From an archaeon GW2011_AR19 (GTDB lineage Archaea > Nanobdellota > Nanobdellia > Pacearchaeales > GW2011-AR1): 43,745 nt of DNA. Position numbers and translations under genes: made by a program. Of this stretch, positions 28,453 to 40,680 are shown piece by piece. The first letter of the stretch is position 1. Each line of letters opens with the position of its first letter. The notes beneath the pieces were generated by a model, which had not been told where the DNA came from, made no database searches, and saw only the letters and a list, made by a program, of their open reading frames with translations. The stretch spans positions 1 through 43,745 of the forward strand of contig JWKY01000011.1 of the NCBI GenBank assembly GCA_000806015.1, read 5' to 3'.

Positions 28453-29691
28453 ATGAAATTTGATTTCCAAAAAAAAATTTTACCTAACGGCATGACAATT
28501 GTTTTTGAGAAAAGAAATGTACCTGTTGTCAGCGTTGTTTTTGCTGTCAGAGCAGGAGGAATTAATGAAGAAGTTTCAGAAAAAGGAATTTCCCATTTTA
28601 TTGAGCACATGTTGTATAAAGGAACCAAAACAAGAACATCAAAACAGATTGCAGAAGAAATAGAAAAAAATGGCGGAGAGTTAAACGGGTTTACTTCAGA
28701 AGAAATTACAGCATATTATTGCAAAATGCCTTCTAAACATTTGGAGATTGCTTTAAATGTTCTGACGGACATAATTAAAAATTCAGTGTTTGATGAAAAA
28801 GAGCTTGAAAAAGAGAGAAAAGTTATTTTTGAAGAAATTAAAATGTATAAAGACAATCCTCAAATGCACAGCCTTTCAGAAACTCAGAAACTGCTTTATA
28901 CAGGAACTCTTGGAATTAATCTTGCCGGAACATTTGAGAGTATGAATAGCATTGACAGAAAAAAAATTACGAAAAAATTCAAGCAAATTTATGAGCCAAA
29001 TAATTTTATTTTGTGTGTGGTTGGAGATGCTAATTTTGAGCAAATAATAAAATTTGCTGAAAAAAATTTTGGAAATGGAAAATCTCAGGTTCCAAAGCAA
29101 AAGTTTGAATTAAAAAATGAATCTAAAACAGAAGAAAGAGAAGGAGTAGACCAAGCAAATTTGGTTTTTGCATATCATATTCCTACAGCAAGCGATGACG
29201 GATGTTATGCCGCAAAAGTTTTAAGCAGTTTAATGACTGGAGGAATGTCTTCAAGATTGTTTGAAGAGATAAGAGAAAAAAGAAATTTAGCTTATGCTAT
29301 TTCAGGAGATTCAAATATTAACCGAGATTTTGCGTATAATCTCATTTATGTCGGAACAATGAAAGAAAATGTTGATAAAGTTAAGGAATTAATTTTAAAA
29401 GAATTTGAAAAAGTATCTAAGGAATTAACAGAAAAAGAATTGAATCAAACTAAAGAACAGCTTATTGGAAATTACCAGATTTCCATGGAAGATTCCCAGA
29501 CACAGATGATAAATCTTTTGGTTTCAGAAATTCAGGGAGACGCAAAAGATTTTTATGAATACGAAAAAAATATTTCTAAAGTTAAATTAAAGGATGTTAA
29601 GGAACTTGCTAAAAAAACAATTAAGGAGTATAGCTTTTTTGCGCTTGTGCCGAAGGAGAAAAAGAATTTAAAATTGAAGAAGAATTTATAA
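28453..29691 (+). CDS. M16-family zinc metallopeptidase
   Basis: A 412-residue pitrilysin/processing-peptidase-type protease. The inverted zinc motif HFIEH gives His48, Glu51 and His52, with the third ligand Glu128 in KVIFEEIKMYKD at the expected distance. The C-terminal half contains GGMSSRLFEEIREKRNLAY, which closes the chamber in this family. M16 enzymes are common in bacteria and rarer in archaea, so this may be a transferred gene. No signal peptide is visible. A TATA-like TTTTTATAAATT precedes the ATG. Confidence 0.93.
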   Translation: MKFDFQKKILPNGMTIVFEKRNVPVVSVVFAVRAGGINEEVSEKGISHFIEHMLYKGTKTRTSKQIAEEIEKNGGELNGFTSEEITAYYCKMPSKHLEIALNVLTDIIKNSVFDEKELEKERKVIFEEIKMYKDNPQMHSLSETQKLLYTGTLGINLAGTFESMNSIDRKKITKKFKQIYEPNNFILCVVGDANFEQIIKFAEKNFGNGKSQVPKQKFELKNESKTEEREGVDQANLVFAYHIPTASDDGCYAAKVLSSLMTGGMSSRLFEEIREKRNLAYAISGDSNINRDFAYNLIYVGTMKENVDKVKELILKEFEKVSKELTEKELNQTKEQLIGNYQISMEDSQTQMINLLVSEIQGDAKDFYEYEKNISKVKLKDVKELAKKTIKEYSFFALVPKEKKNLKLKKNL

Positions 29692-31897: not shown

Positions 31898-32560
31898 ATG
31901 AGAGCTTTTATTTCCTTGGATCTGCCGGCTGAAATTATTAAAGAGATTAAAAAAATTCAGAATGCTCTTCCGAAATTTGTTGGCAAGAAAACAGAAAGTG
32001 AAAATCTGCATCTGACTTTAAAATTTTTAGGGGAAGTTTCTGAAGAAAAAATAGAACAAATAAGAGAGAATTTAAAAAAAATAAAACTTTCCCCAAGGGA
32101 TGACTCCTCCAAGGATATCCAAGGAGGGCACGAGAACCTGCAAGCAGGTGACACTGCTGTGCCTTCTGGTGAGCCTCAAAAATTTCAGGTTTCTATTGAT
32201 TCAATAGGAGTTTTTTCTAAAAAAGTTATTAGAATTGTCTGGCTTCATCTAACAAATTGCGACGCGCTTCAAAGAGAAATTGATGAAAAACTTTCCGATT
32301 TATTTGGAAAAGAACAAAGATTTATGGGCCATTTAACAATCGCACGAGTTAAAAATATAAAAAATTCCCCAAGGGATGACTCCTCAAAGGATGACACTGC
32401 TGTGCCTTCTGGTGAGCCTAAAAAAGAATTTTTAGAAAAATTAAAAAAAATAAAAATTCCAAAAATTAATTTTATGGTTGAGAATTTTAAATTAAAAAGT
32501 TCAACGTTTAAATCAGAAGGTCCTGTTTATGAAGATATTGAAATATATAATCTAAAGTAA
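31898..32560 (+). CDS. thpR: RNA 2',3'-cyclic phosphodiesterase (ThpR-like) with two in-frame inserts
   Basis: A 2H phosphoesterase that opens 2',3'-cyclic phosphates in RNA. The start MRAFISLDLP and the two motifs HLTL (His38) and HLTI (His145) are intact. Two inserts interrupt the fold at residues about 65-93 and 157-174, encoded by repeat modules at 32091-32176 and 32367-32419; both read SPRDDSS...TAVPSGEP. Without them the protein would be about 175 residues, the normal family size. The inserts lie in loops outside the motifs and are likely disordered, so activity may be kept. Confidence 0.88.
   Translation: MRAFISLDLPAEIIKEIKKIQNALPKFVGKKTESENLHLTLKFLGEVSEEKIEQIRENLKKIKLSPRDDSSKDIQGGHENLQAGDTAVPSGEPQKFQVSIDSIGVFSKKVIRIVWLHLTNCDALQREIDEKLSDLFGKEQRFMGHLTIARVKNIKNSPRDDSSKDDTAVPSGEPKKEFLEKLKKIKIPKINFMVENFKLKSSTFKSEGPVYEDIEIYNLK
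32091..32176 (+). repeat. In-frame palindromic module, 86-bp form
   Basis: Begins CCCCAAGGGATGACTC and ends TGGTGAGCCT, like the 53-bp and 26-bp forms. Relative to the 53-bp form it has an additional 33 bp that contains the perfect hairpin ACCTGCAAGCAGGT; the palindrome GGATATCC lies across its left join. It adds residues without breaking the frame. Confidence 0.85.
32367..32419 (+). repeat. In-frame palindromic module, 53-bp form
   Basis: Same ends as the 86-bp copy, with a 27-bp middle (10 + 17 bp) that matches the two flanks of the 33-bp insert in that copy except for one base. It lies 190 bp downstream in the same gene. Confidence 0.85.
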
Positions 32561-32562
32561 AT

Positions 32563-33345
32563 TTAAAACTTTCTGCTTATAATTTCAATGAAATTTTCCG
32601 CTCTTTTTCCAAGTATTTTTTTTAAATCTTCAATTGGAGCATTAATTATGTTTTGAATTGAGCCAAATTTTTTTAAAAGTTCTTTTGAGCTTTTTGGTCC
32701 AATACCCGGAAAGCCTTCAATTATAAATTGCATCTGCTCTTTTTTATTAAGTGTTTTTTTTCCTGAATTAAGTTTAACATCTTTTGCTTTTTTTCTTGAC
32801 AGGACATCAATAAATTTTGCAGTATCTTCTGAATCTTTTGTAAACATTATAGGTATTTTGTGTTTTAAGAGTATTGAAAGCAAAAACCCCCTTATTGCAT
32901 TTGCATTTACTCCGGAATTTTCGTCTGCATAAATTTCCTGTTTAGAAATCCCTTCAATAATTAATAATTTGTTTTCAAATTGTTTTAACTCTTCTAATTG
33001 TTTTAGCAATCTTCCATTTATCATTGAAGAGATAAAATCTGAAATAGTTTTTCTCTCAATTATTGTATCTTTCACTGCATAATCTCCGATTTTTAATTCT
33101 TTAAATATAATTTCAAAACCGAGGGATATTAAATAAGAAGCTACAAGTGAATTTTTTTCTCGGTAATCAATTATTATTTTTATTTTTTGTTTTGCCCCAC
33201 CCCCCAGCGCTTCGCTCCCCCTTCCTCCACCCAACTCTATTCGCCCACCCTTCCCAGAAGAAAAGTTATTAGCTGAAGAATCTTTTTTATCTTTTTTTCT
33301 TGAAGAGAAAATATCAAATATTGGTTTTTGCGTGATGATTTTCAT
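32563..33345 (-). CDS. Hef/XPF-type ERCC4 nuclease with HhH domain
   Basis: The nuclease half of Hef, which cuts branched DNA such as forks and flaps. The metal site reads IIDYREKN and IERKTISDF (ERK-x3-D) between about residues 57 and 105; a helix-hairpin-helix pair (EGFPGIGPKSSKELLKKFG) closes the protein. It is 260 residues, and starts one base after the end of the helicase remnant, so the usual single Hef polypeptide is split. Residues 25-50 form a Gly-rich insert (KGGRIELGGGRGSEALGGG) encoded by a GC-rich block that shares a 20-mer with the gene at 2799. Confidence 0.88.
   Translation of the reverse strand: MKIITQKPIFDIFSSRKKDKKDSSANNFSSGKGGRIELGGGRGSEALGGGAKQKIKIIIDYREKNSLVASYLISLGFEIIFKELKIGDYAVKDTIIERKTISDFISSMINGRLLKQLEELKQFENKLLIIEGISKQEIYADENSGVNANAIRGFLLSILLKHKIPIMFTKDSEDTAKFIDVLSRKKAKDVKLNSGKKTLNKKEQMQFIIEGFPGIGPKSSKELLKKFGSIQNIINAPIEDLKKILGKRAENFIEIISRKF
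33194..33262. repeat. GC-rich insert in the Hef nuclease gene
   Basis: About 70 bp of C-rich DNA on the plus strand (CCCCACCCCCCAGCGC, then TTCGCTCCCCCTTCC), with the mini-hairpin AGCGCTTCGCT, in an otherwise AT-rich gene. It encodes the Gly-rich stretch before the nuclease domain. Positions 33216-33235 match 3512-3531 in the other orientation. Confidence 0.6.
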
Positions 33346-33346
33346 T

Positions 33347-34783
33347 TTAAATTAACCTCTTCTGCAATTCCGGCTGAGCATCATTTTTAATAAATTCTCT
33401 GACTTCTTCAATCGCTTTTTTCATTTTTCTTTCCCTCATTTTTGAAATATAAAATGAAGATTCATCTCTTGTTTTTTTTGTGATTAACATAATTATTTTT
33501 CCTTTGTTTAATCATAAAATATTTATTTCGCCGTCTGAAAATTCTTGAATTATTTTTTTTTGCTCTTTTTGATTTAATCCTTTTTCTCCTGCTCTGCTTG
33601 TCTGACCAATAAAAACTTTTGCATTTATTCCACTTATTTCATTTAGATTTTTTGAAAGGATATTAGCAGTGTCTCTGAATTGTGTAAAGACAATTATTTT
33701 TGCAGATGGGTTAAGCTCTATTTCTTTTTTTATTATTTTATTTGCCTCTCTTAATTTTGGATGCTCATGATTTTTTTCCAATAGTTCATTAGATTGCATA
33801 AAAATAAAATTAAATTCAGGTCTTGCAGTAAGTTTCATCACTCCTTTGCTTTGTTTTTTTGCTGATTGCTCTAAAAGGTTCTTTAAATATTTGTTAAAAC
33901 CGGTTAAAGTTTGTGTTTCTAAAAGCTCTAATGCATGCTGGATTTTTATTGCCTGCGCGCATGCGCTTGCTCCGAGCATATAATTATAATTTTTATTTCC
34001 TCTTGCGAGAGTTCCGGAAATTTTTTTCTGCAGTTCTAATAATCTTGTTTTATTTGCAGGACCAAAAAGCACACTTCTATATCTTAGTTCTTCAATATAT
34101 TCATTCAGCAGTTTATTTAATAAGTGTTTTATTTCATCAAACTCCGCAGGAAGATCTACAAGTATTTTTTCAAATTCAAGCTCCTGCAAATATTTCTTTA
34201 CATCTTCACTTTCTCTGGTTCTTAATTCCACTTCTTCAATTGAAAGATTTTTGCATATTTCTTTTATTCTTGATACATCGTTTCCGGGACTTGCTGTCAA
34301 TCCAAGTATTCTTGGATGCAGCGATTGTTCTTGATATTCTTGGGAAACATAATTATAATCATAATTTTTAATGCATCTATGGGCTTCATCTTCAATCAGC
34401 AGACAAACATCTTTTAAATCATATAACTTTTTTTTAATGTCATTGGCGACGCATTGCGGGGTTGAAAAAATTATATCTGCTGTGTGCCAAATTTTTTTTC
34501 TTTCTGAAGGTTTTATTTCTCCGGTGAATAATTGCATATCTCCAAAGAGTTCAGGAAGCTGTTTTTTAAAGCTGGCTAAATGCTGTTCTGCAAGAGGTTT
34601 TGTCGGCGCGAGAAAAACCGCTCTTTCGCCGGGAAATTCTTTCATTCTCTTAATAACCAGCATTAATGCAATCAGGGTTTTTCCCAAACCCGTCGGAAGA
34701 ACAACCAAACAATTTTTTTTAACGCAGGTTTCAAGAATTTTAAGTTGATATTCCCGCGGTGTAATATTTTGGAGGAAGTTCAT
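33347..34783 (-). pseudogene. Hef helicase domain lacking motifs V and VI
   Basis: An SF2 helicase start: Q-like motif ITPREYQLKIL, Walker A LPTGLGKTLIA, DEAH box IEDEAH, motif III TASPG, the Hef-specific insertion, and motif IV region KIIVFTQFRDTA. The frame stops (TGA, 33512-33514) after FSDGEINIL. The same frame then continues as [20 protein letters not shown] to a TAA at 33347, clearly the end of the helicase domain. The roughly 40-50 residues that should lie between, including motifs V and VI with the arginine finger, are missing. The helicase should be inactive unless this is an assembly error. The nuclease gene follows after 1 bp. Confidence 0.75.
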
Positions 34784-34917
34784 TTTAAATTAAATTTAAT
34801 AATGTTTATAAAATATTGTTACTATTTTAAAAAAATTTATCCTGGTCTTTTATTTTTTTGAATAAATAAAAATGTAAAAGATTATATTGACGAAGGAATA
34901 ATTTTTATGACGAGGTT

Positions 34918-35058
34918 GGCTTTGTTGAAAATCTTTTTTTTGTTTCTGTTTTGAATTCAAATTCCCGCTAAAGCTTGCCTAAAGGCAAGCACCCACTCTT
35001 TAATCTTTAATATCCGAGCCAAAGAAAGTTACGAATTCAAAACATTTTCAACAAAGCC
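34918..35058. repeat. Long-stem palindromic element, copy 3
   Basis: Outer arms GGCTTTGTTGAAAAT (34918-34932) and a perfect complement (35044-35058); inner arms GTTTTGAATTC (34948-34958) and a perfect complement (35033-35043). The left side has 15 unpaired T-rich nt, the right arms are contiguous. The loop contains ATTCCCGCTAAAG, the hairpin GCTTGCCTAAAGGCAAGC, CACCCACTCTTTAAT and CCGAGCCAAAG. It fills the 280-bp gap between the Hef helicase start and the M50-like gene; no other content is seen there. Confidence 0.85.
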
Positions 35059-35065
35059 GATGAAG

Positions 35066-35698
35066 TTACACTACCAAAAAACTATATCCGAGAGCAATTA
35101 AGGTTATTATTGCCAAAAAAGCCCATAAGGTTTTGCTTCCAAAGAAGATTTTATTTCCGTCGAGGTTTGAAATTGGAATCAAATTAAAGAATGCAAACCA
35201 GATGCTGAATTTTGCAAATTCTGAAAACCCAATTAAATAACCAAGCGCAGCTGCAAGAAGATTAATCAGGATTCCTGCTCCGGCAATATAAGCTAAATGG
35301 TCTTCGCTTACATCTGAAAAAGAATATATTCCGTGCCTTTTTGCCGTCCTGTAAATTTTTGCCCGAACATCAAACACCAGTGAAGCCATCCAAACAAAAC
35401 CTTTTAGCGGAAAAAAGATTATTCTTGAAACTATTGGAAAAATCGCTCCTGCTGGAATCTCTTTTTTAAATGATTGATAAGGTTCGTACCCCCATCTTTT
35501 AAATTCCCATAATTTTATTTCAGTTTTTAATTCAAAAAATTCTCCGGTTAATTTTTTTGCGAAAACATTAATTATAATTACTGCAAACACCGAGAGCAAT
35601 GCAACTAAGAAAGCAGCAAAACCCGATAACAGAGTAATTGAAAAAGCAATAATTATTGAAACACTTACTATTGTTAGAATTTCCCTGTGATTTATCAT
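35066..35698 (-). CDS. M50-like membrane protein with degenerate zinc motif
   Basis: A 210-residue polytopic protein resembling site-2 proteases. The second signature NLIPISNLDG, which carries the third zinc ligand, is intact. Where HExxH should be, near residues 45-50, the sequence reads IINVFAKKLTG, so both histidines and the catalytic Glu are absent. It is therefore probably a non-catalytic relative, although the alignment is by eye. It borders the long-stem element on its 3' side. Confidence 0.65.
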   Translation of the reverse strand: MINHREILTIVSVSIIIAFSITLLSGFAAFLVALLSVFAVIIINVFAKKLTGEFFELKTEIKLWEFKRWGYEPYQSFKKEIPAGAIFPIVSRIIFFPLKGFVWMASLVFDVRAKIYRTAKRHGIYSFSDVSEDHLAYIAGAGILINLLAAALGYLIGFSEFAKFSIWFAFFNLIPISNLDGNKIFFGSKTLWAFLAIITLIALGYSFLVV

Positions 35699-35801
35699 GC
35701 TGATTTTTAGCTTGGGATTTTTATAAAGGTTGCTGTTAGGTGTTTTGAAATATCTAATAGAAAATGGAAAAGTATTTAAATGATTTTGAGTAAATTTTAA
35801 T

Positions 35802-36083
35802 ATGAAAGTTAGGAAAATAAGCGAGGTCCTTGGTATGAGGGTTTATACTGATTCGGGAGATTATTTTGGAGAGATTGAAGAAGTTAATTTATCTGAGAAT
35901 AAAATTGACGGATGGAGAATCAGAGTCGGCGGAAGTGTTTTGCCCTTGATTGGAGGCGCAAGAGGGGTAATTATTCCGCATAATTTTGTAAAAGCAATTA
36001 GTGATGTTGTAATAATAAGCAAATCTGCTTTGCCAAGCCAGCCAACTCATTCAGATGAATTAGAAATAGATGCGAGTGAGTAA
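35802..36083 (+). CDS. PRC-barrel domain protein
   Basis: A 93-residue single PRC-barrel: RKISEVLGMRVYTDSGDYFGEIEEV, then GWRIRVGG and a hydrophobic GVIIPHNFVKAISDVVIIS. Archaeal stand-alone PRC-barrel proteins include CdpB-like cell-division factors as well as RNA-related proteins; the sequence does not decide. A TATA-like TATTTAAATG lies about 26 nt before the ATG, implying a leaderless transcript. Confidence 0.85.
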   Translation: MKVRKISEVLGMRVYTDSGDYFGEIEEVNLSENKIDGWRIRVGGSVLPLIGGARGVIIPHNFVKAISDVVIISKSALPSQPTHSDELEIDASE

Positions 36084-36119
36084 AAATTGAGAGAGATTTC
36101 TGAAAAACAAAAAGACTAT

Positions 36120-36521
36120 TTATTCTAAAACCCTAAATATTTCTTCAGGCTTAACGATTTTTATTCCCTGAAATTCTTTAAGTTTCAAAAGATGTTTGTC
36201 ATAAGAAAGAATATATTCTGATTTTGTTTCAACCGCGCATTCTATAATCTTGTTGTCATCAGCATCCTCTTTAACAACATCAATTTTCTTGCTTGGATTT
36301 ACTAAAGTTAGAAATTGAAGAACTTTTTCAAGCAAGTTTTGAACTTCTTTTTCAGCATATAAAAAATCTCTTTTTAAAACTTCTGAAAATTCCTCTAATA
36401 TTTCTTTTGTTGTAAATATTTCCACATTGTTTCTTATCAGCTTTTGCAATAATTTATGGCTAACACTATAAGCCCATTGAGTCGCTGATATAAGAAAATT
36501 AGTATCAACCGCAATTTTCAT
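36120..36521 (-). CDS. PIN-domain toxin (VapC-like)
   Basis: A 133-residue PIN-domain ribonuclease. Acidic residues of the active site are visible in AVDTNFLIS, in the EEFSEVL helix, in DADDNKIIECA and in SYDKHLLKL. It overlaps the end of the AbrB-type gene by 4 bp (ATGA), so both are translated together as a toxin-antitoxin pair. All expected acidic residues appear present. Confidence 0.85.
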   Translation of the reverse strand: MKIAVDTNFLISATQWAYSVSHKLLQKLIRNNVEIFTTKEILEEFSEVLKRDFLYAEKEVQNLLEKVLQFLTLVNPSKKIDVVKEDADDNKIIECAVETKSEYILSYDKHLLKLKEFQGIKIVKPEEIFRVLE

Positions 36522-36796
36522 TTTTTCTTAGAATTTCTTAACTTATGAACTAAATCAGGAACATTTGCTTCTTTAATTCCAAGTTTTTTAGCTCTCTTTG
36601 CTCCTTCTTTTGCTATTTTTTGAAGTTCGCCGATTAAATCTTCTTTGGATGGTGTTGCAACTTTCTTTAAAACTATGCTGTTTTTTCCACTAACTACTGC
36701 AAACATAGTTCCCTCTGAAGCGTGCATTTCTACTCGTATATCTTGAGGAATTACTATCTGTCCTTTTGAAGACATTTTTATTATTTCAACTGTCAT
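36518..36796 (-). CDS. AbrB/MazE-type antitoxin
   Basis: A 92-residue protein whose first 50 residues are a swapped-hairpin AbrB DNA-binding domain (MSSKGQIVIPQDIRVEM, then GKNSIVLKKV). The remaining helical tail would wrap the PIN toxin. An inverted repeat at its predicted transcript start suggests autoregulation. It is the first gene of the pair. Confidence 0.88.
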   Translation of the reverse strand: MTVEIIKMSSKGQIVIPQDIRVEMHASEGTMFAVVSGKNSIVLKKVATPSKEDLIGELQKIAKEGAKRAKKLGIKEANVPDLVHKLRNSKKK

Positions 36797-36812
36797 TTTG
36801 TTTTTTCCTATT

Positions 36813-36848
36813 TCTTACTCTCTTATTGTAAGATATGCTTATTTATAA
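36813..36848 (-). promoter_or_regulatory. Promoter and inverted repeat of the AbrB/PIN pair
   Basis: A TATA-like TTTATAAAT lies near 36840-36848. TCTTAC (36813-36818) and GTAAGA (36828-36833) form an inverted repeat with a 9-nt spacer that covers the expected transcript start. This is a plausible operator for the AbrB-type protein. Confidence 0.45.
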
Positions 36849-36900
36849 ACTTTTCGGTAAAAAGCAAAAAGATTAAATAGTTATTTTTTGTTAAAGAAAT

Positions 36901-37416
36901 ATGAATTGGTTAAAGAAATTATTTAAGAAAAAACTTGATTTAGATGATTTAATTCCTTTATTAAAAGAATTAGGAAAATCAAAAGGGTTTATCAGTAATT
37001 TATATGCTCATCAAAGAAAAGAATATACTCATGGGGCTTATGGAAAATTAGATGTTAAAAAAGTTTCTCCTGAAAAAATAAGATTTGATTTAGACATACA
37101 AGAATATCAATTTCATAGAGGTCTTCCGCATGAAGAAAACACTGAATATAATACTGGAAAAACAAATGTCACAAAAACATTTTCATATCAAGAAATAGAG
37201 AAAAATCCTGTTCTCAAAAAATATGTTAAAAAGAGGAATTTAGAAAGCTCCCTTTCAATTCTCTCAATTGCTTTAATTTTAGCAAGTACTTTTTTTATTT
37301 CAAATAATATAACAGGAAACGCAATTCTTACAGCAACGCCAAATTCTTCCGGCATTATTGGGGCAGGGCTTTTTGTTTTAGGAGTAATTAGTTTTATTCT
37401 TGCGAGAAATATTTAA
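36901..37416 (+). CDS. Tail-anchored membrane protein, 171 aa
   Basis: A soluble N-terminal part (MNWLKKLFKKKLDLDDLIPL, with HQRKEYTHGAYGKLDV) followed by two hydrophobic segments near the end (LSILSIALILASTFFIS and SGIIGAGLFVLGVISFILA), separated by NNITGNAILTATP. The ITGNAI motif after a helix is common in DPANN membrane proteins as far as I recall. No enzymatic motif is visible. Confidence 0.7.
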   Translation: MNWLKKLFKKKLDLDDLIPLLKELGKSKGFISNLYAHQRKEYTHGAYGKLDVKKVSPEKIRFDLDIQEYQFHRGLPHEENTEYNTGKTNVTKTFSYQEIEKNPVLKKYVKKRNLESSLSILSIALILASTFFISNNITGNAILTATPNSSGIIGAGLFVLGVISFILARNI

Positions 37417-37507
37417 ATTGTTTGCAGTATTTGTTTATAATTTCTATCTAAACAAATTTGTAATGGATAACCGAAACCTTTAAATATTTGTAATGAATAA
37501 CTTTTTT

Positions 37508-38416
37508 ATGGTTTTTGAAAGGAAAATTAAAAGCAAGGGCAAAGAATATTGGATTTTAGCTCATTCAATAAGAAAAAATGGAAGAATAATCCAAAAGAGC
37601 AAATATCTTGGCAAGGAATTGCCTTCTAAAAAAAGATTAGAACAATTGAAAAAAGAGTTTATTAGGGAAATGGGGGGCAAAAAATATAAATATTTTTCTG
37701 AAAAAGAAATTAGCGAGATAGAAGATAAAAAAAATAAATATAAAAAAGAGCTGAAAAAATTAAGCTCTTTAGAGAAAAAGAAAGCTCTTGAAGAATTTGC
37801 AATCAGGTTTACTTATGACAGCAGTAAATTAGCAGGCGTTGATGTTACTTTAAGGCAGACTTTTTTAATACTTAAAGACGGAATTATTCCAAAGAATTTT
37901 AAAAATTTGAAAACTGTTAAAGAGTTGGAAAACCATGAAAAAGGTTTTGCAGCAATCACAAAATATAAGGGGTCTTTGAATATGGGTTTTATTAAAAAAC
38001 TTCATAAAATTTTATTTTTAGGAATTGACGATGCTGTTTCTGGAAAACTTAGAAGCGAATTAAGAAGAAATGTCAATATTGCGGGAACTATTTATATTCC
38101 GCCAAAATGGAATGAAATTAATAAGCAGCTTAAATCTCTTTTTGAATGGCGCAAGGCAGAAAACCGAAAAATGCACCCCTTGGAGCTTGCAGCATTAGTT
38201 CATCTGAAATTAGTTTCTTTACAGCCTTTTGTTGACGGGAATTCAAGGCTTTCAAGACTATTAATGAACTGGGTTTTATGGAAAAAAAATTACCCTTTGA
38301 TTGACATTCCCGCAAATGATTTAGAGAATTATTATAATGTTTTGGATAAATATCAAATAGAAAAAGACGAAAAACCATTTATTCAATATATAAAACAGAA
38401 ATATCTTGGCGGTTAA
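37508..38416 (+). CDS. Fic-family protein with altered catalytic and inhibitory motifs
   Basis: Fic enzymes transfer AMP or similar groups using HPFx(D/E)GNGRxxR. Here the motif is QPFVDGNSRLSR at residues 239-250: the catalytic His is Gln and the second Gly is Ser, with Asp, Asn and both Arg kept. The N-terminal inhibitory motif (S/T)xxxE(G/N) aligns with SSKLAG at 105-110, where the Glu is Ala. The fold is otherwise clear (302 residues, LHKILFLGIDDAVSGKLR). Standard AMP transfer is unlikely. ATG 37508 (MVFERK) is chosen from the TATA-like TTTAAATAT at 37479; ATG at 37493 is also possible. Confidence 0.85.
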   Translation: MVFERKIKSKGKEYWILAHSIRKNGRIIQKSKYLGKELPSKKRLEQLKKEFIREMGGKKYKYFSEKEISEIEDKKNKYKKELKKLSSLEKKKALEEFAIRFTYDSSKLAGVDVTLRQTFLILKDGIIPKNFKNLKTVKELENHEKGFAAITKYKGSLNMGFIKKLHKILFLGIDDAVSGKLRSELRRNVNIAGTIYIPPKWNEINKQLKSLFEWRKAENRKMHPLELAALVHLKLVSLQPFVDGNSRLSRLLMNWVLWKKNYPLIDIPANDLENYYNVLDKYQIEKDEKPFIQYIKQKYLGG

Positions 38417-38494
38417 AAATATTTAATTTTATAAAAAATCTACATATAAATAATCATCATAAACATTTATAAATATTGCAAATCTTATAAGAAA

Positions 38495-38986
38495 ATGGCA
38501 GAGACACTTTTACAGCATCCTGTTTTGACTAATTTTGTATATCCCTTTTTAATTGTGTTTTTTATAGTTTTTGCAGTTTTGGAGAAGACAAAACTTTTTG
38601 GAGAGGAAAAAAAACAGCTTAATGCCCTTACCGCATTTGTAATCGGCTTGATTTTTGTTTCAGCAGTTTTTCCAAAAATGGTTGTTTCAAATATGATTTT
38701 ATTTTTATCAGTTGCGATTGTAATTGTATTTGTAGTTTTAATGCTGTGGGGGTTTGTTTTTTCAACTAAAGACGGGTTTGTAATGACCAACGCAATGAAG
38801 GTGGGGCTATTTGTTGTTATTACTATTTCTTTAATTATTGGGATTTTGTGGGCGGCAGGCGTCAGTGGAAAAGCTTATGATTTTTTGTTTAACCAGTCAT
38901 GGAGCGAGGCATTTTGGACAAATTTAATTTTTGTTGTTTTAATTGGAGTTGCTCTCGCTGCAGTTATTAGAGGTTCTGGGAAATAG
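38495..38986 (+). CDS. Polytopic membrane protein of the pilus/secretion cluster
   Basis: A 163-residue protein with four hydrophobic helices, starting MAETLLQHPVLTNFVYPFLI and ending AVIRGSGK. It shares helix pattern and size with the next gene (both have FVYPFLIVFF/FSYVLPFLLIFA, LNALTAFVIGL/INAIIALSVAL), so they are probable paralogues. I associate such pairs with the archaeal pilus ATPase cluster in DPANN genomes; the role is unknown. TTTATAAAT is about 25 nt upstream of the ATG. Confidence 0.75.
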   Translation: MAETLLQHPVLTNFVYPFLIVFFIVFAVLEKTKLFGEEKKQLNALTAFVIGLIFVSAVFPKMVVSNMILFLSVAIVIVFVVLMLWGFVFSTKDGFVMTNAMKVGLFVVITISLIIGILWAAGVSGKAYDFLFNQSWSEAFWTNLIFVVLIGVALAAVIRGSGK

Positions 38987-39158
38987 TTTGGTTTTTGTTT
39001 AATTACATTTGATTTTTTAAGTTTTTCCTGTGAAATTTTTTGCCCCGCCCGCCAAAGACGATTTCGGAGCAAATTAATTTTTGCGAACAGAGTGAGCAGA
39101 TTTTATCTATATCTCATAATTAAGAAATATTTATAAATAACATTTAATATTTTATATT

Positions 39159-39761
39159 ATGATAGAGGTGATGAGCTTATTAGCTTCTTATGGTTTTTTT
39201 AGAGGAGGAGATATTGGAAATATTCTTGCGCAATGGCAGGCTGCAGGAGTTTTTAGTTATGTTTTGCCTTTTTTATTAATTTTTGCCCTTACATTCGGGC
39301 TTTTAATTAGAATTGGTTTGTTTACAACTAAAACTAAAGAAGGAATAGAGGGACCAAATAAATCAATAAATGCAATTATTGCCCTTTCTGTCGCTTTAAT
39401 GGCTTTGCAATTTGATTTTGTTTCTGTCTTTTTTTCTGAGATATTTCCAAGATTTGGAGTTGCATTATCTATTATTCTGGTAATTATAATTCTCGGAGGA
39501 TTGTTTATGCCTTTAAATGCCAAAGGTTTTAATTGGGTCTTGATATTAGTTGTAATGGTTATTATAGGAATAGTTGTTTTCCAGTCATTAGAATCTTTTG
39601 GATATAATGCAGGTTATTGGTGGAGAAATAATCTTGGAAGTTTGCTTGGCTGGGCAGTTTTAATTGGATTAATTATTGCAGTTGTTGCAGGGAGCACAAG
39701 CAGTTCTCCAGATTCCAGCAATTTGTTGAGTAAAATTTTGCTTGGACCTCCATCAAAATAA
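39159..39761 (+). CDS. Polytopic membrane protein, paralogue of the previous gene
   Basis: A 200-residue protein with about five hydrophobic segments, beginning MIEVMSLLASYGFFRGG and ending with a polar Ser/Pro tail. The middle (GPNKSINAIIALSVALMALQ) parallels the preceding gene. A TATA-like ATTTATAAATA at 39127-39138 lies about 25 nt before the ATG at 39159; an ATG at 39171 is a less likely start. The 170 bp between the two genes include a GC-rich patch near 39042-39070 of unknown meaning. Confidence 0.75.
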   Translation: MIEVMSLLASYGFFRGGDIGNILAQWQAAGVFSYVLPFLLIFALTFGLLIRIGLFTTKTKEGIEGPNKSINAIIALSVALMALQFDFVSVFFSEIFPRFGVALSIILVIIILGGLFMPLNAKGFNWVLILVVMVIIGIVVFQSLESFGYNAGYWWRNNLGSLLGWAVLIGLIIAVVAGSTSSSPDSSNLLSKILLGPPSK

Positions 39762-39814
39762 TTTTTTAGATTAATTTTATTTTAGAACAAATGCTTGCAA
39801 CAAGTTGCCCGAAT

Positions 39815-40543
39815 TTATTTATCTTTTTTTGGCGTTGTTGTTTTTTTCACTGCCCTTTCTGCATGAGATTTTACAAGAATTGGGAGAGTTTTGCTAAATG
39901 AATCCTGCATCATATTCATTTCTTTTTTTATGCTTTCAAGACCCTGCCCATAAGAACCAATTTTTTCAAGTATTTTGATTTGCAAGTTTTCTATGATTGA
40001 TTCAACTTTTTTTAATCTGTTTTCAAAATTAGAAAATTTTGTCTCAGCAATTGCTGAAAATTCTTTAAAATTTGAAATTTGTAGGGAGAGTTTTTTTACT
40101 TTTTCTTCAAAAACTTGTTCTGCAATTTCTATTATAGTGTCTGTTCCAAATCCTTTATCATAATTTTCAGATTCTTGTCCATATCCTTCTTGAGGATAAT
40201 ATGCTTCTGTCTCTTGCAGCGGGGGATAAGAAGGTTCTTGAGGAGGGTAGTATTGAGCAGGCGGCATTTCCTGAGGAGCATATGTTTCAGGGTTTGAAAA
40301 CGGCGAAGGTGTTTCTGGTCCCAAAGGGATTTCCCCAAGGGATGACTCTGGTGAGCCTTCCCCCGGAGTGAAATCATTTTCCTGCATTTCATTTTCTCCT
40401 TCAACAGCTTCTTTTATTTTTGCCTGGGAAAATGCATCTGTTATTGCTTTTGGAGTAATTCCCTGTTCAAATAATCTATTTGAGATTTCTTGTTCAGATA
40501 AACCCATTTGTTTCATTTGTTTGACTTGATCTAATGCGCCCAT
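39815..40543 (-). CDS. Proline-rich, coiled-coil protein, 242 aa
   Basis: The N-terminus (MGALDQVKQMKQMGLSEQEI, then NRLFEQGITPKAITDAFSQA) is a small helical domain seen in DPANN proteins next to pilus genes. The middle is Pro/Glu/Tyr-rich and likely disordered, and a coiled coil spans about 130-230 (IIEIAEQVFEEKVKKLSLQI). A 26-bp palindromic module at 40333-40358 is read here in the opposite orientation to thpR and encodes GSPESSLGE without breaking the frame. It faces the ATPase gene together with the next minus-strand gene. Confidence 0.75.
   Translation of the reverse strand: MGALDQVKQMKQMGLSEQEISNRLFEQGITPKAITDAFSQAKIKEAVEGENEMQENDFTPGEGSPESSLGEIPLGPETPSPFSNPETYAPQEMPPAQYYPPQEPSYPPLQETEAYYPQEGYGQESENYDKGFGTDTIIEIAEQVFEEKVKKLSLQISNFKEFSAIAETKFSNFENRLKKVESIIENLQIKILEKIGSYGQGLESIKKEMNMMQDSFSKTLPILVKSHAERAVKKTTTPKKDK
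40333..40358 (+). repeat. Palindromic module, 26-bp minimal form, inside a minus-strand gene
   Basis: CCCCAAGGGATGACTC joined directly to TGGTGAGCCT: exactly the two ends of the thpR modules with the middle absent. The host gene lies on the minus strand, so the module is tolerated in both orientations. Confidence 0.85.
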
Positions 40544-40578
40544 TTTTTTGATTTTTAGTTTTTTTTACATTGCTATTT

Positions 40579-40680
40579 AAGTTTTGGGTTTTTCAAATTC
40601 CCACTAAAGCTTGCCTAAAGGCAAGCACCCGCCCTTTATTTTTTTGTGATTTTCCAAAGTTTAATAAAAACCCCAAACTT
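40579..40680. repeat. Long-stem palindromic element, copy 4 (short form)
   Basis: Arms AAGTTTTGGGTTTTT (40579-40593) and AAAAACCCCAAACTT (40666-40680) pair at 14 of 15 positions. The loop carries AAATTCCCACTAAAG, the hairpin GCTTGCCTAAAGGCAAGC and CACCCGCCCTTTATT, almost the same as in the copy at 34918, while the arms differ completely. It lies between two minus-strand genes of the pilus cluster. Confidence 0.8.

Follow-up and report, generated by a model that had tools for sequence, protein, structure and literature searches.

The window analysed here is the whole 43,745-nucleotide (nt) stretch of contig JWKY01000011.1 (assembly GCA_000806015.1) from the archaeon GW2011_AR19. Two of its protein genes, thpR and a gene on the other strand for a protein of 242 residues, carry short palindromic inserts built from a 27-nt unit with two mini-hairpins, and a third gene, for an M16 peptidase, holds an empty site at which a relative carries the 27-mer. 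Most probably the inserts are copies of a small mobile 27-nt double-hairpin element which spreads through Pacearchaeota-type archaeal genomes. The features concerned are as follows.

31898..32560, plus strand: host gene thpR (RNA 2',3'-cyclic phosphodiesterase / LigT family; Pfam LigT_PEase 4.1e-20; PDB relatives 1vdx and 2fyh)
32090..32176, plus strand: 87-nt composite in thpR, 29 codons, SPRDDSSKDIQGGHENLQAGDTAVPSGEP; best read as an outer 27-mer split between bases 15 and 16 by a 60-nt hairpin-chain relative
32105..32164, plus strand: inner 60-nt element (hairpin chain) of the 32090 composite; 60-nt forms stand alone in loci L055 and L203 and make a tandem row in L056
32366..32419, plus strand: 54-nt composite in thpR, 18 codons, SPRDDSSKDDTAVPSGEP; a 27-mer holding a second 27-mer after base 15
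32381..32407, plus strand: inner 27-mer, variant B, TCCTCAAAGGATGACACTGCTGTGCCT; covariance-model match E 3.3e-10
39815..40543, minus strand: gene in which the third copy lies; encodes 242 residues, without Pfam matches at E 0.001
40332..40358, plus strand: 27-mer of the commonest sequence, read from the other strand as GSPESSLGE in the 242-residue protein; model E 9.6e-12
40317..40370, plus strand: probable degraded type II 27-nt element (40317-40331 and 40359-40370) with the 27-mer inserted after its base 15; nesting score 0.79
29076..29077, plus strand: empty site in the M16 peptidase gene (28453-29691); 27-mer present in genome G001, site empty in the window and in G002

A preliminary description of this DNA had reported three copies with common ends, inserted in frame in both orientations. 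These ends are indeed present exactly, the left one at 32091, 32367 and 40333 and the right one at 32167, 32410 and 40349, and the frames and translations are as it gave them. With up to three mismatches the left end matches the window four times, far above the 0.04 ± 0.20 matches in shuffles; the right end alone, with one mismatch, matches three times against 1.0 expected, which is not beyond chance. The positions of the copies hold, and their lengths, given as 26, 53 and 86 bp, become 27, 54 and 87 nt, since the unit carries a T before CCCC. Further copies exist in the own and in other genomes, so the three do not stand alone. In the own genome (678,285 bases in 20 contigs, 74.5% complete) the 16-base left end has 20 matches with up to three mismatches and its reversed control none, and a covariance model, the E-values of which are calibrated roughly, finds 17 full-length units at E<1e-8. 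Counting one tandem pair (on C14) once and adding the 87-nt composite with its split outer unit, these amount to 17 separate sites, 16 of which lie in open reading frames. The remaining one closely follows a gene which looks, by eye, like one for a uracil-DNA glycosylase.

When the copies are set side by side, the basic unit is seen to be 27 nt long, with the form TCCN(3)N'GGA-T-GACNC(4)GN'GCC-T, the commonest version of which is TCCCCAAGGGATGACTCTGGTGAGCCT. Hairpin 1 joins T1-C2-C3-N4 to N8-G9-G10-A11 around a loop of three bases, T12 is the linker, hairpin 2 joins G13-A14-C15-N16-C17 to G22-N23-G24-C25-C26 around a loop of four bases and with one A-C mismatch, and T27 closes the unit, the two ends of which are, by eye, not inverted repeats of each other. 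An alignment was made of 33 copies picked by hand, 31 of them distinct; they come from the three genomes of the genus, with one from G005. Compensatory changes, that is at least one change on both sides, are found in six of the eight pairs. Shuffles give 5.0 ± 1.8 cells changed on both sides, the alignment 27; pairing holds in 97.6% of cells, compared with 30.9-61.3% when the partners are slid. Pair 16-23 is seen as T-A, C-G, A-T and G-C, plus one G-T, and pair 13-26, which was added to the structure through the TCA...CGT subtype, as G-C and C-G. Because most paired changes are, by eye, amino-acid changes in the SPRDDSGEP frame, it is the nucleic acid, rather than the peptide, which seems to be conserved; at L057, pair 15-24 is changed on both sides with no effect on the amino acids.

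The second regularity concerns where units enter one another. A structure-and-consensus descriptor gave 73 distinct copies in 182 loci, gathered as carriers of the element rather than as a census, and by their left flank only these were classed as 50 single, 14 nested and 9 tandem. Upon joining the 27 bases either side of each copy and seeking a second element across the junction, 15 copies score at least 0.79 (shuffled maximum 0.70), and in 15 of 15 the junction falls after base 15 of the outer element. The next two scores (0.70 and 0.68) agree with base 15, and the lower ones scatter, some of them at 15. Twelve of the outer elements belong to type I and three to type II, GGCCCCNNNGGGGTCTCCTCTGGAGAA, likewise of 27 nt. 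Matches to the type II pattern number three in G000 (the genome of the window), five in G001 and four in G002, with none in G005 or G015; 11 of these 12 were examined, one row repeating its neighbour, and nine lie in a clear reading frame, the other two being ambiguous.

The nesting which the preliminary description saw is thus real, and what enters is in each case a complete unit of 27 (or 60) nt, at a single internal position, not an arbitrary increment. The 27 bp placed between the ends at 32367 are present, and are actually a second, variant copy with its own covariance-model match. The longest copy, taken as the same 27 bp with 33 more, is best read as a 27-mer enclosing a 60-nt relative, since copies of that length are found by themselves in other genomes. 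The copy at 40332, described as bare ends, probably splits a degraded type II 27-nt element, the halves of which would be GGTCCCAAAGGGATT and TCCCCCGGAGTG; none of the 15 nesting calls is weaker, its score of 0.79 comparing with at most 0.70 in shuffles. That the increments are multiples of three agrees with the unit lengths measured, which are 27, 54, 60, 63, 78 and 87 nt. Long forms of 60, 63, 78 and 87 nt occur elsewhere too, the 87-nt form of L167 containing a nested 27-mer. In L164 three left halves are followed by three right halves, L145 is a tandem row of three units, and extra 12-nt half-units are present in L004 and L017.

As to the sites themselves, a ThpR search matched 34 of 37 genomes at E<=0.001, the own included, the matches listed for G002 and G005 being only the insert within another gene. 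Both thpR inserts are missing in 29 of 29 aligned orthologous reading frames, a few of which have 2-5 residues of their own there, so that a conserved protein segment, the alternative raised at the outset, does not describe them. The placement of the inserts in surface loops, also proposed then, draws indirect support from orthologues having nothing or few residues at these places; a single-sequence structure prediction for ThpR was uninformative (mean predicted local distance difference test score 31.8) and gives no loop placement. When the flanks of seven filled sites were joined and aligned to relatives, a gap-free empty site was found at the junction for four of the seven, with net insertions of 87, 54, 27 and 27 nt. 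For thpR insert 1 (87 nt) the joined flanks are gap-free against three of four relatives (L132, L133 and L134) and gapped against G001; for insert 2 (54 nt) they are gap-free against three of four (L089, L133 and L134) and gapped against L132. The two 27-nt cases are the M16 peptidase, filled in G001 and empty in the window and G002, and a diphthamide synthase, filled in G001 and empty in G000. The filled M16 gene has TCAAAA at the place where the two relatives with the empty site have GG(A/G)AAA, and insertion may have changed the first two bases. The M16 unit of G001 and a unit in an unrelated gene of G002 (L044 and L057) are both followed by TCAAAATCTAAA, which may be chance since AAATCT is already there at the empty M16 sites.

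Certain insertions seem to predate the species that carry them, since a unit is present in SecD of both G000 and G002 and another in GATase of both G000 and G001. In ribosomal protein L31e, the plain unit of G000 aligns with a nested form in G001, the two differing by a gap of 27 nt, and the L31e tail of G002 has the unit in the opposite orientation. By Pfam, the hosts in G000 are ThpR/LigT, TsaD, a class II tRNA synthetase (LysS), SecD/F, L31e, a P-type ATPase and GATase; those in relatives are an M16 peptidase, a T2SSE ATPase, an SRP54-type GTPase, diphthamide synthase, HIT and PIN proteins, PolB, ProRS, deoxyhypusine synthase and a wyosine enzyme. One loop of Kae1/TsaD appears to carry inserts in five genomes (L025, L047, L151, L162 and L203), in 27-nt, nested and one 60-nt form, the assignment being by Pfam on the G000 protein and by flank likeness for the others.

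A clear reading frame, meaning at least 100 codons and 1.4 times the next frame, exists for 66 of the 73 copies and is lacking for seven. Among the 48 single copies in clear frames, 32 read like SPRDDSGEP and nine, on the other strand, like GSPESSLGE, with 5, 1 and 1 in the three other open frames. In other words, 41 of 48 use two of the five open frames, for which P is about 1e-10 if the frames are equally likely and the copies independent; by host similarity group, a coarse grouping in which the insert itself may join proteins, the proportion is 29 of 34 (P about 7e-8). Judged from their sequences, the copies look translated, with selection acting on the peptide.

The unit is found at E<=1e-4 in 26 of 181 genomes (4 of the 17 of best quality) and in 17 of 87 genera of the archaeal family. 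A degenerate type A/B pattern, which does not span all subtypes, was scanned across 84,980 species, from which own-genome records were possibly left out, and gave 24 stretches, all in records titled Pacearchaeota, Nanoarchaeota or plain archaeon. Viral contigs gave no stretches of this pattern, and viral carriage of it was rejected on that ground. Presence varies among species of one genus, and the unevenness of the distribution is consistent with gain and loss, perhaps also with transfer.

How such an element might move can be outlined. Insertion into genes would be near-random, with selection removing the events that break the frame, are hydrophobic or break the structure, and leaving copies in tolerant loops. 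A single strand, of DNA or RNA, would be recognised by the copying machinery, and the fixed point in hairpin 2 would be where a resident copy is cut or primed. It is put forward tentatively that the mobile unit consists of the 27-nt, nine-codon double hairpin and nothing more, which would make it a very small invader of genes, and that its own second hairpin is the preferred landing site. Recursive insertion, via a copying enzyme, would then produce X-X-X...Y-Y-Y chains and extend essential proteins by nine residues at a time. That the copying occurs in trans, by an enzyme of the host or of another element, is a rather doubtful addition; on this scheme a hairpin-forming single strand would be copied, the hairpin-2 stem of a resident unit would be the preferred entry, and selection on frame and peptide would follow.

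Several observations weigh against an element of this kind. Three of the seven sites tested yielded no gap-free empty site: the 242-residue gene is gapped against both G001 and G002, G001 being without the copy segment in the gapped alignment, the T2SSE ATPase site has a 3-nt gap against the window and G001, and the tandem pair of L060 is gapped against the window. The 40 single sites have no firm target motif or constant duplication, in contrast to the strict point inside resident elements; C or A stands at +2 in 35 of 40 and TC follows, by eye, in 11 of 40, which was too little for a target motif or duplication to be accepted. As many as 155 of the 181 family genomes have no match. The same A[B] pairing accounts for 7 of the 15 nested cases, which may represent one composite that spread, leaving perhaps only about 4-6 independent nesting events. 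On the structural side, the rows of the covariation alignment were chosen by hand from matches of a model that already held seven of the eight pairs, the statistics ignore the relatedness of the rows, and further pair types, at 11 against 8.5 in shuffles (17 of 500 shuffles reach the count), are less striking. The folding energy of the 27-mer is no better than that of shuffles (z -0.13 as DNA, +0.20 as RNA), its hairpins being weak, and that of the 54-mer likewise; folding energy was consequently rejected as proof of structure, and the structural case rests on covariation. The search for an enzyme weighs against it as well: among genomes 68-93% complete, Y1_Tnp is found in one of five carriers and in none of the three genomes of the genus, and RVT_1 in three of 11 carriers and in none of G000-G002, so neither Y1 transposase nor reverse transcriptase is tied to the carriers and both were rejected as linked movers.

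It could be, alternatively, that quasi-palindromes are spread and 'corrected' by template switching or gene conversion during replication, with no dedicated mobile element involved. One arm would then be copied from the other, giving compensatory changes without selection, and short hairpins would occasionally be pasted elsewhere. Such arm-to-arm correction could produce the paired changes described above, and it accounts for tandem rows such as the three units of L145, for the 12-nt half-units of L004 and L017 and for the absence of a linked enzyme in the searches. We consider it unlikely nonetheless, as exact full-unit insertions at unrelated loci and the one fixed nesting point look enzyme-directed. 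Movement of REP (repetitive extragenic palindromic) or IS200-IS605-type sequences by a Y1 (HUH) transposase acting on single-stranded hairpins would explain short hairpin pairs, dispersed copies and a position fixed relative to the hairpin. Its probability is nevertheless small, given the distribution of Y1_Tnp just described and given that REPs are extragenic where the present copies are mostly in genes; the unit also has no GTAG or CGTC tag, these being the tags reported in the accessible part of PMC3733652.

A hairpin pair within coding genes might also be transcribed without reaching the protein, through ribosome skipping or through removal from the RNA, for which archaeal bulge-helix-bulge splicing would provide a route. 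There is precedent in the short palindromic inserts of yeast mitochondria which the ribosome bypasses, reported in Magnusiomyces according to the accessible parts of PMC6649704 and PMC5009743. We give this very little credence: the bias towards two of five frames is explained by translation and selection on the peptide, and not by RNA removal or ribosomal bypass, and neither removal nor skipping would impose unit lengths that are multiples of three. As for ordinary fast-evolving protein segments that are alike by chance or convergence, the Ser/Pro/Gly/Asp-rich peptides would fit loops, yet identical 27-mers occur in unrelated genes, in both orientations and with different peptides, and the model E-values reach 1e-11 on the rough calibration, with a reversed-pattern control of 0 and with covariation, such that the idea retains next to no probability.

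Other repeats came to light as well. GGTCACGAGAACCTGCAAGCAGGCGA is repeated, in part as variants, at loci L208 and L212-L215 of G131 and at L202 of G005; these sequences are related to the central part of the 60-nt chain and point to one more hairpin family. G005 also has another GC-rich repeat with hairpins, around GCCGCTTCCCACGGGATGACC (L081, L083 and partly L085). In the window, a repeat around the palindrome AAGCTTGCCTAAAGGCAAGC (family D17) has two copies, at 34918-35058 and 40575-40679, to the first of which G001 has 15 matches, complete or partial, with identities of 74-96%.

Of wider interest is the presence, in archaea whose genomes are reduced, of selfish-looking DNA that is both in frame and very small; its copies, empty sites and nested cases are numerous enough for the rules of insertion to be readable from sequence. 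Proteins gaining nine-residue loops in essential enzymes form a natural experiment, and the fixed point between bases 15 and 16 names a target for an enzyme, by which the question of how coding palindromes move becomes testable. Among the literature matches listed there is no description of such elements in DPANN archaea, the subscription literature being mostly beyond the reach of the search.

Among known systems, a miniature inverted-repeat transposable element was rejected, since the ends are not inverted repeats and the 40 single sites have no constant target-site duplication. REP sequences are extragenic and tied to a Y1 transposase. Together with the REPtrons, which have RAYT transposases, they are, in the accessible parts of their literature, likewise dispersed palindromic repeats of 20-40 bp; the present copies are intragenic, and Y1 was found in one of five carriers and not in the other four, all incomplete metagenome-assembled genomes, which does not place them with REP/RAYT or IS200-IS605. 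Mitochondrial double-hairpin elements are organellar and largely outside protein-coding sequence. Those of Allomyces, and the GC clusters of yeast, are likewise short GC-rich hairpins in AT-rich genomes, mobile by presence and absence and subject to merger and shuffling of units (accessible parts of PMC4478555 and PMC7218506). The two consecutive short hairpins are an architecture shared with them, as a likeness only; here 66 of 73 sampled copies of a nine-codon unit are in clear reading frames. In behaviour the unit also resembles the Rickettsia palindromic elements (RPEs) and their Wolbachia relatives, which are likewise palindromic DNA of more than one family, inserted into many unrelated genes without loss of frame and where the protein tolerates it. 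RPEs are about 105-150 bp with long stem-loops (accessible parts of PMC2229807 and PMC10969869), whereas here 27 nt form two short hairpins, in archaea, and whole units nest at one fixed base. Membership in the RPE families proper was accordingly rejected, the longest chain form being 87 nt, and the exact type A/B scan listed no bacterial record. The RPE-like behaviour in an archaeon proposed at the outset holds, and it is not the first case, coding palindromes having been described in M. jannaschii (Suyama et al. 2005, as cited in the accessible parts of PMC2229807 and PMC2996958). These, compared here through the citing papers only, are likewise archaeal, palindromic and fused in protein genes; the type A/B scan of 84,980 species did not list M. 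jannaschii. In the broad sense, then, the 27-nt unit is an RPE-like protein-coding palindromic element, being an in-frame dispersed repeat with insert-free orthologues.

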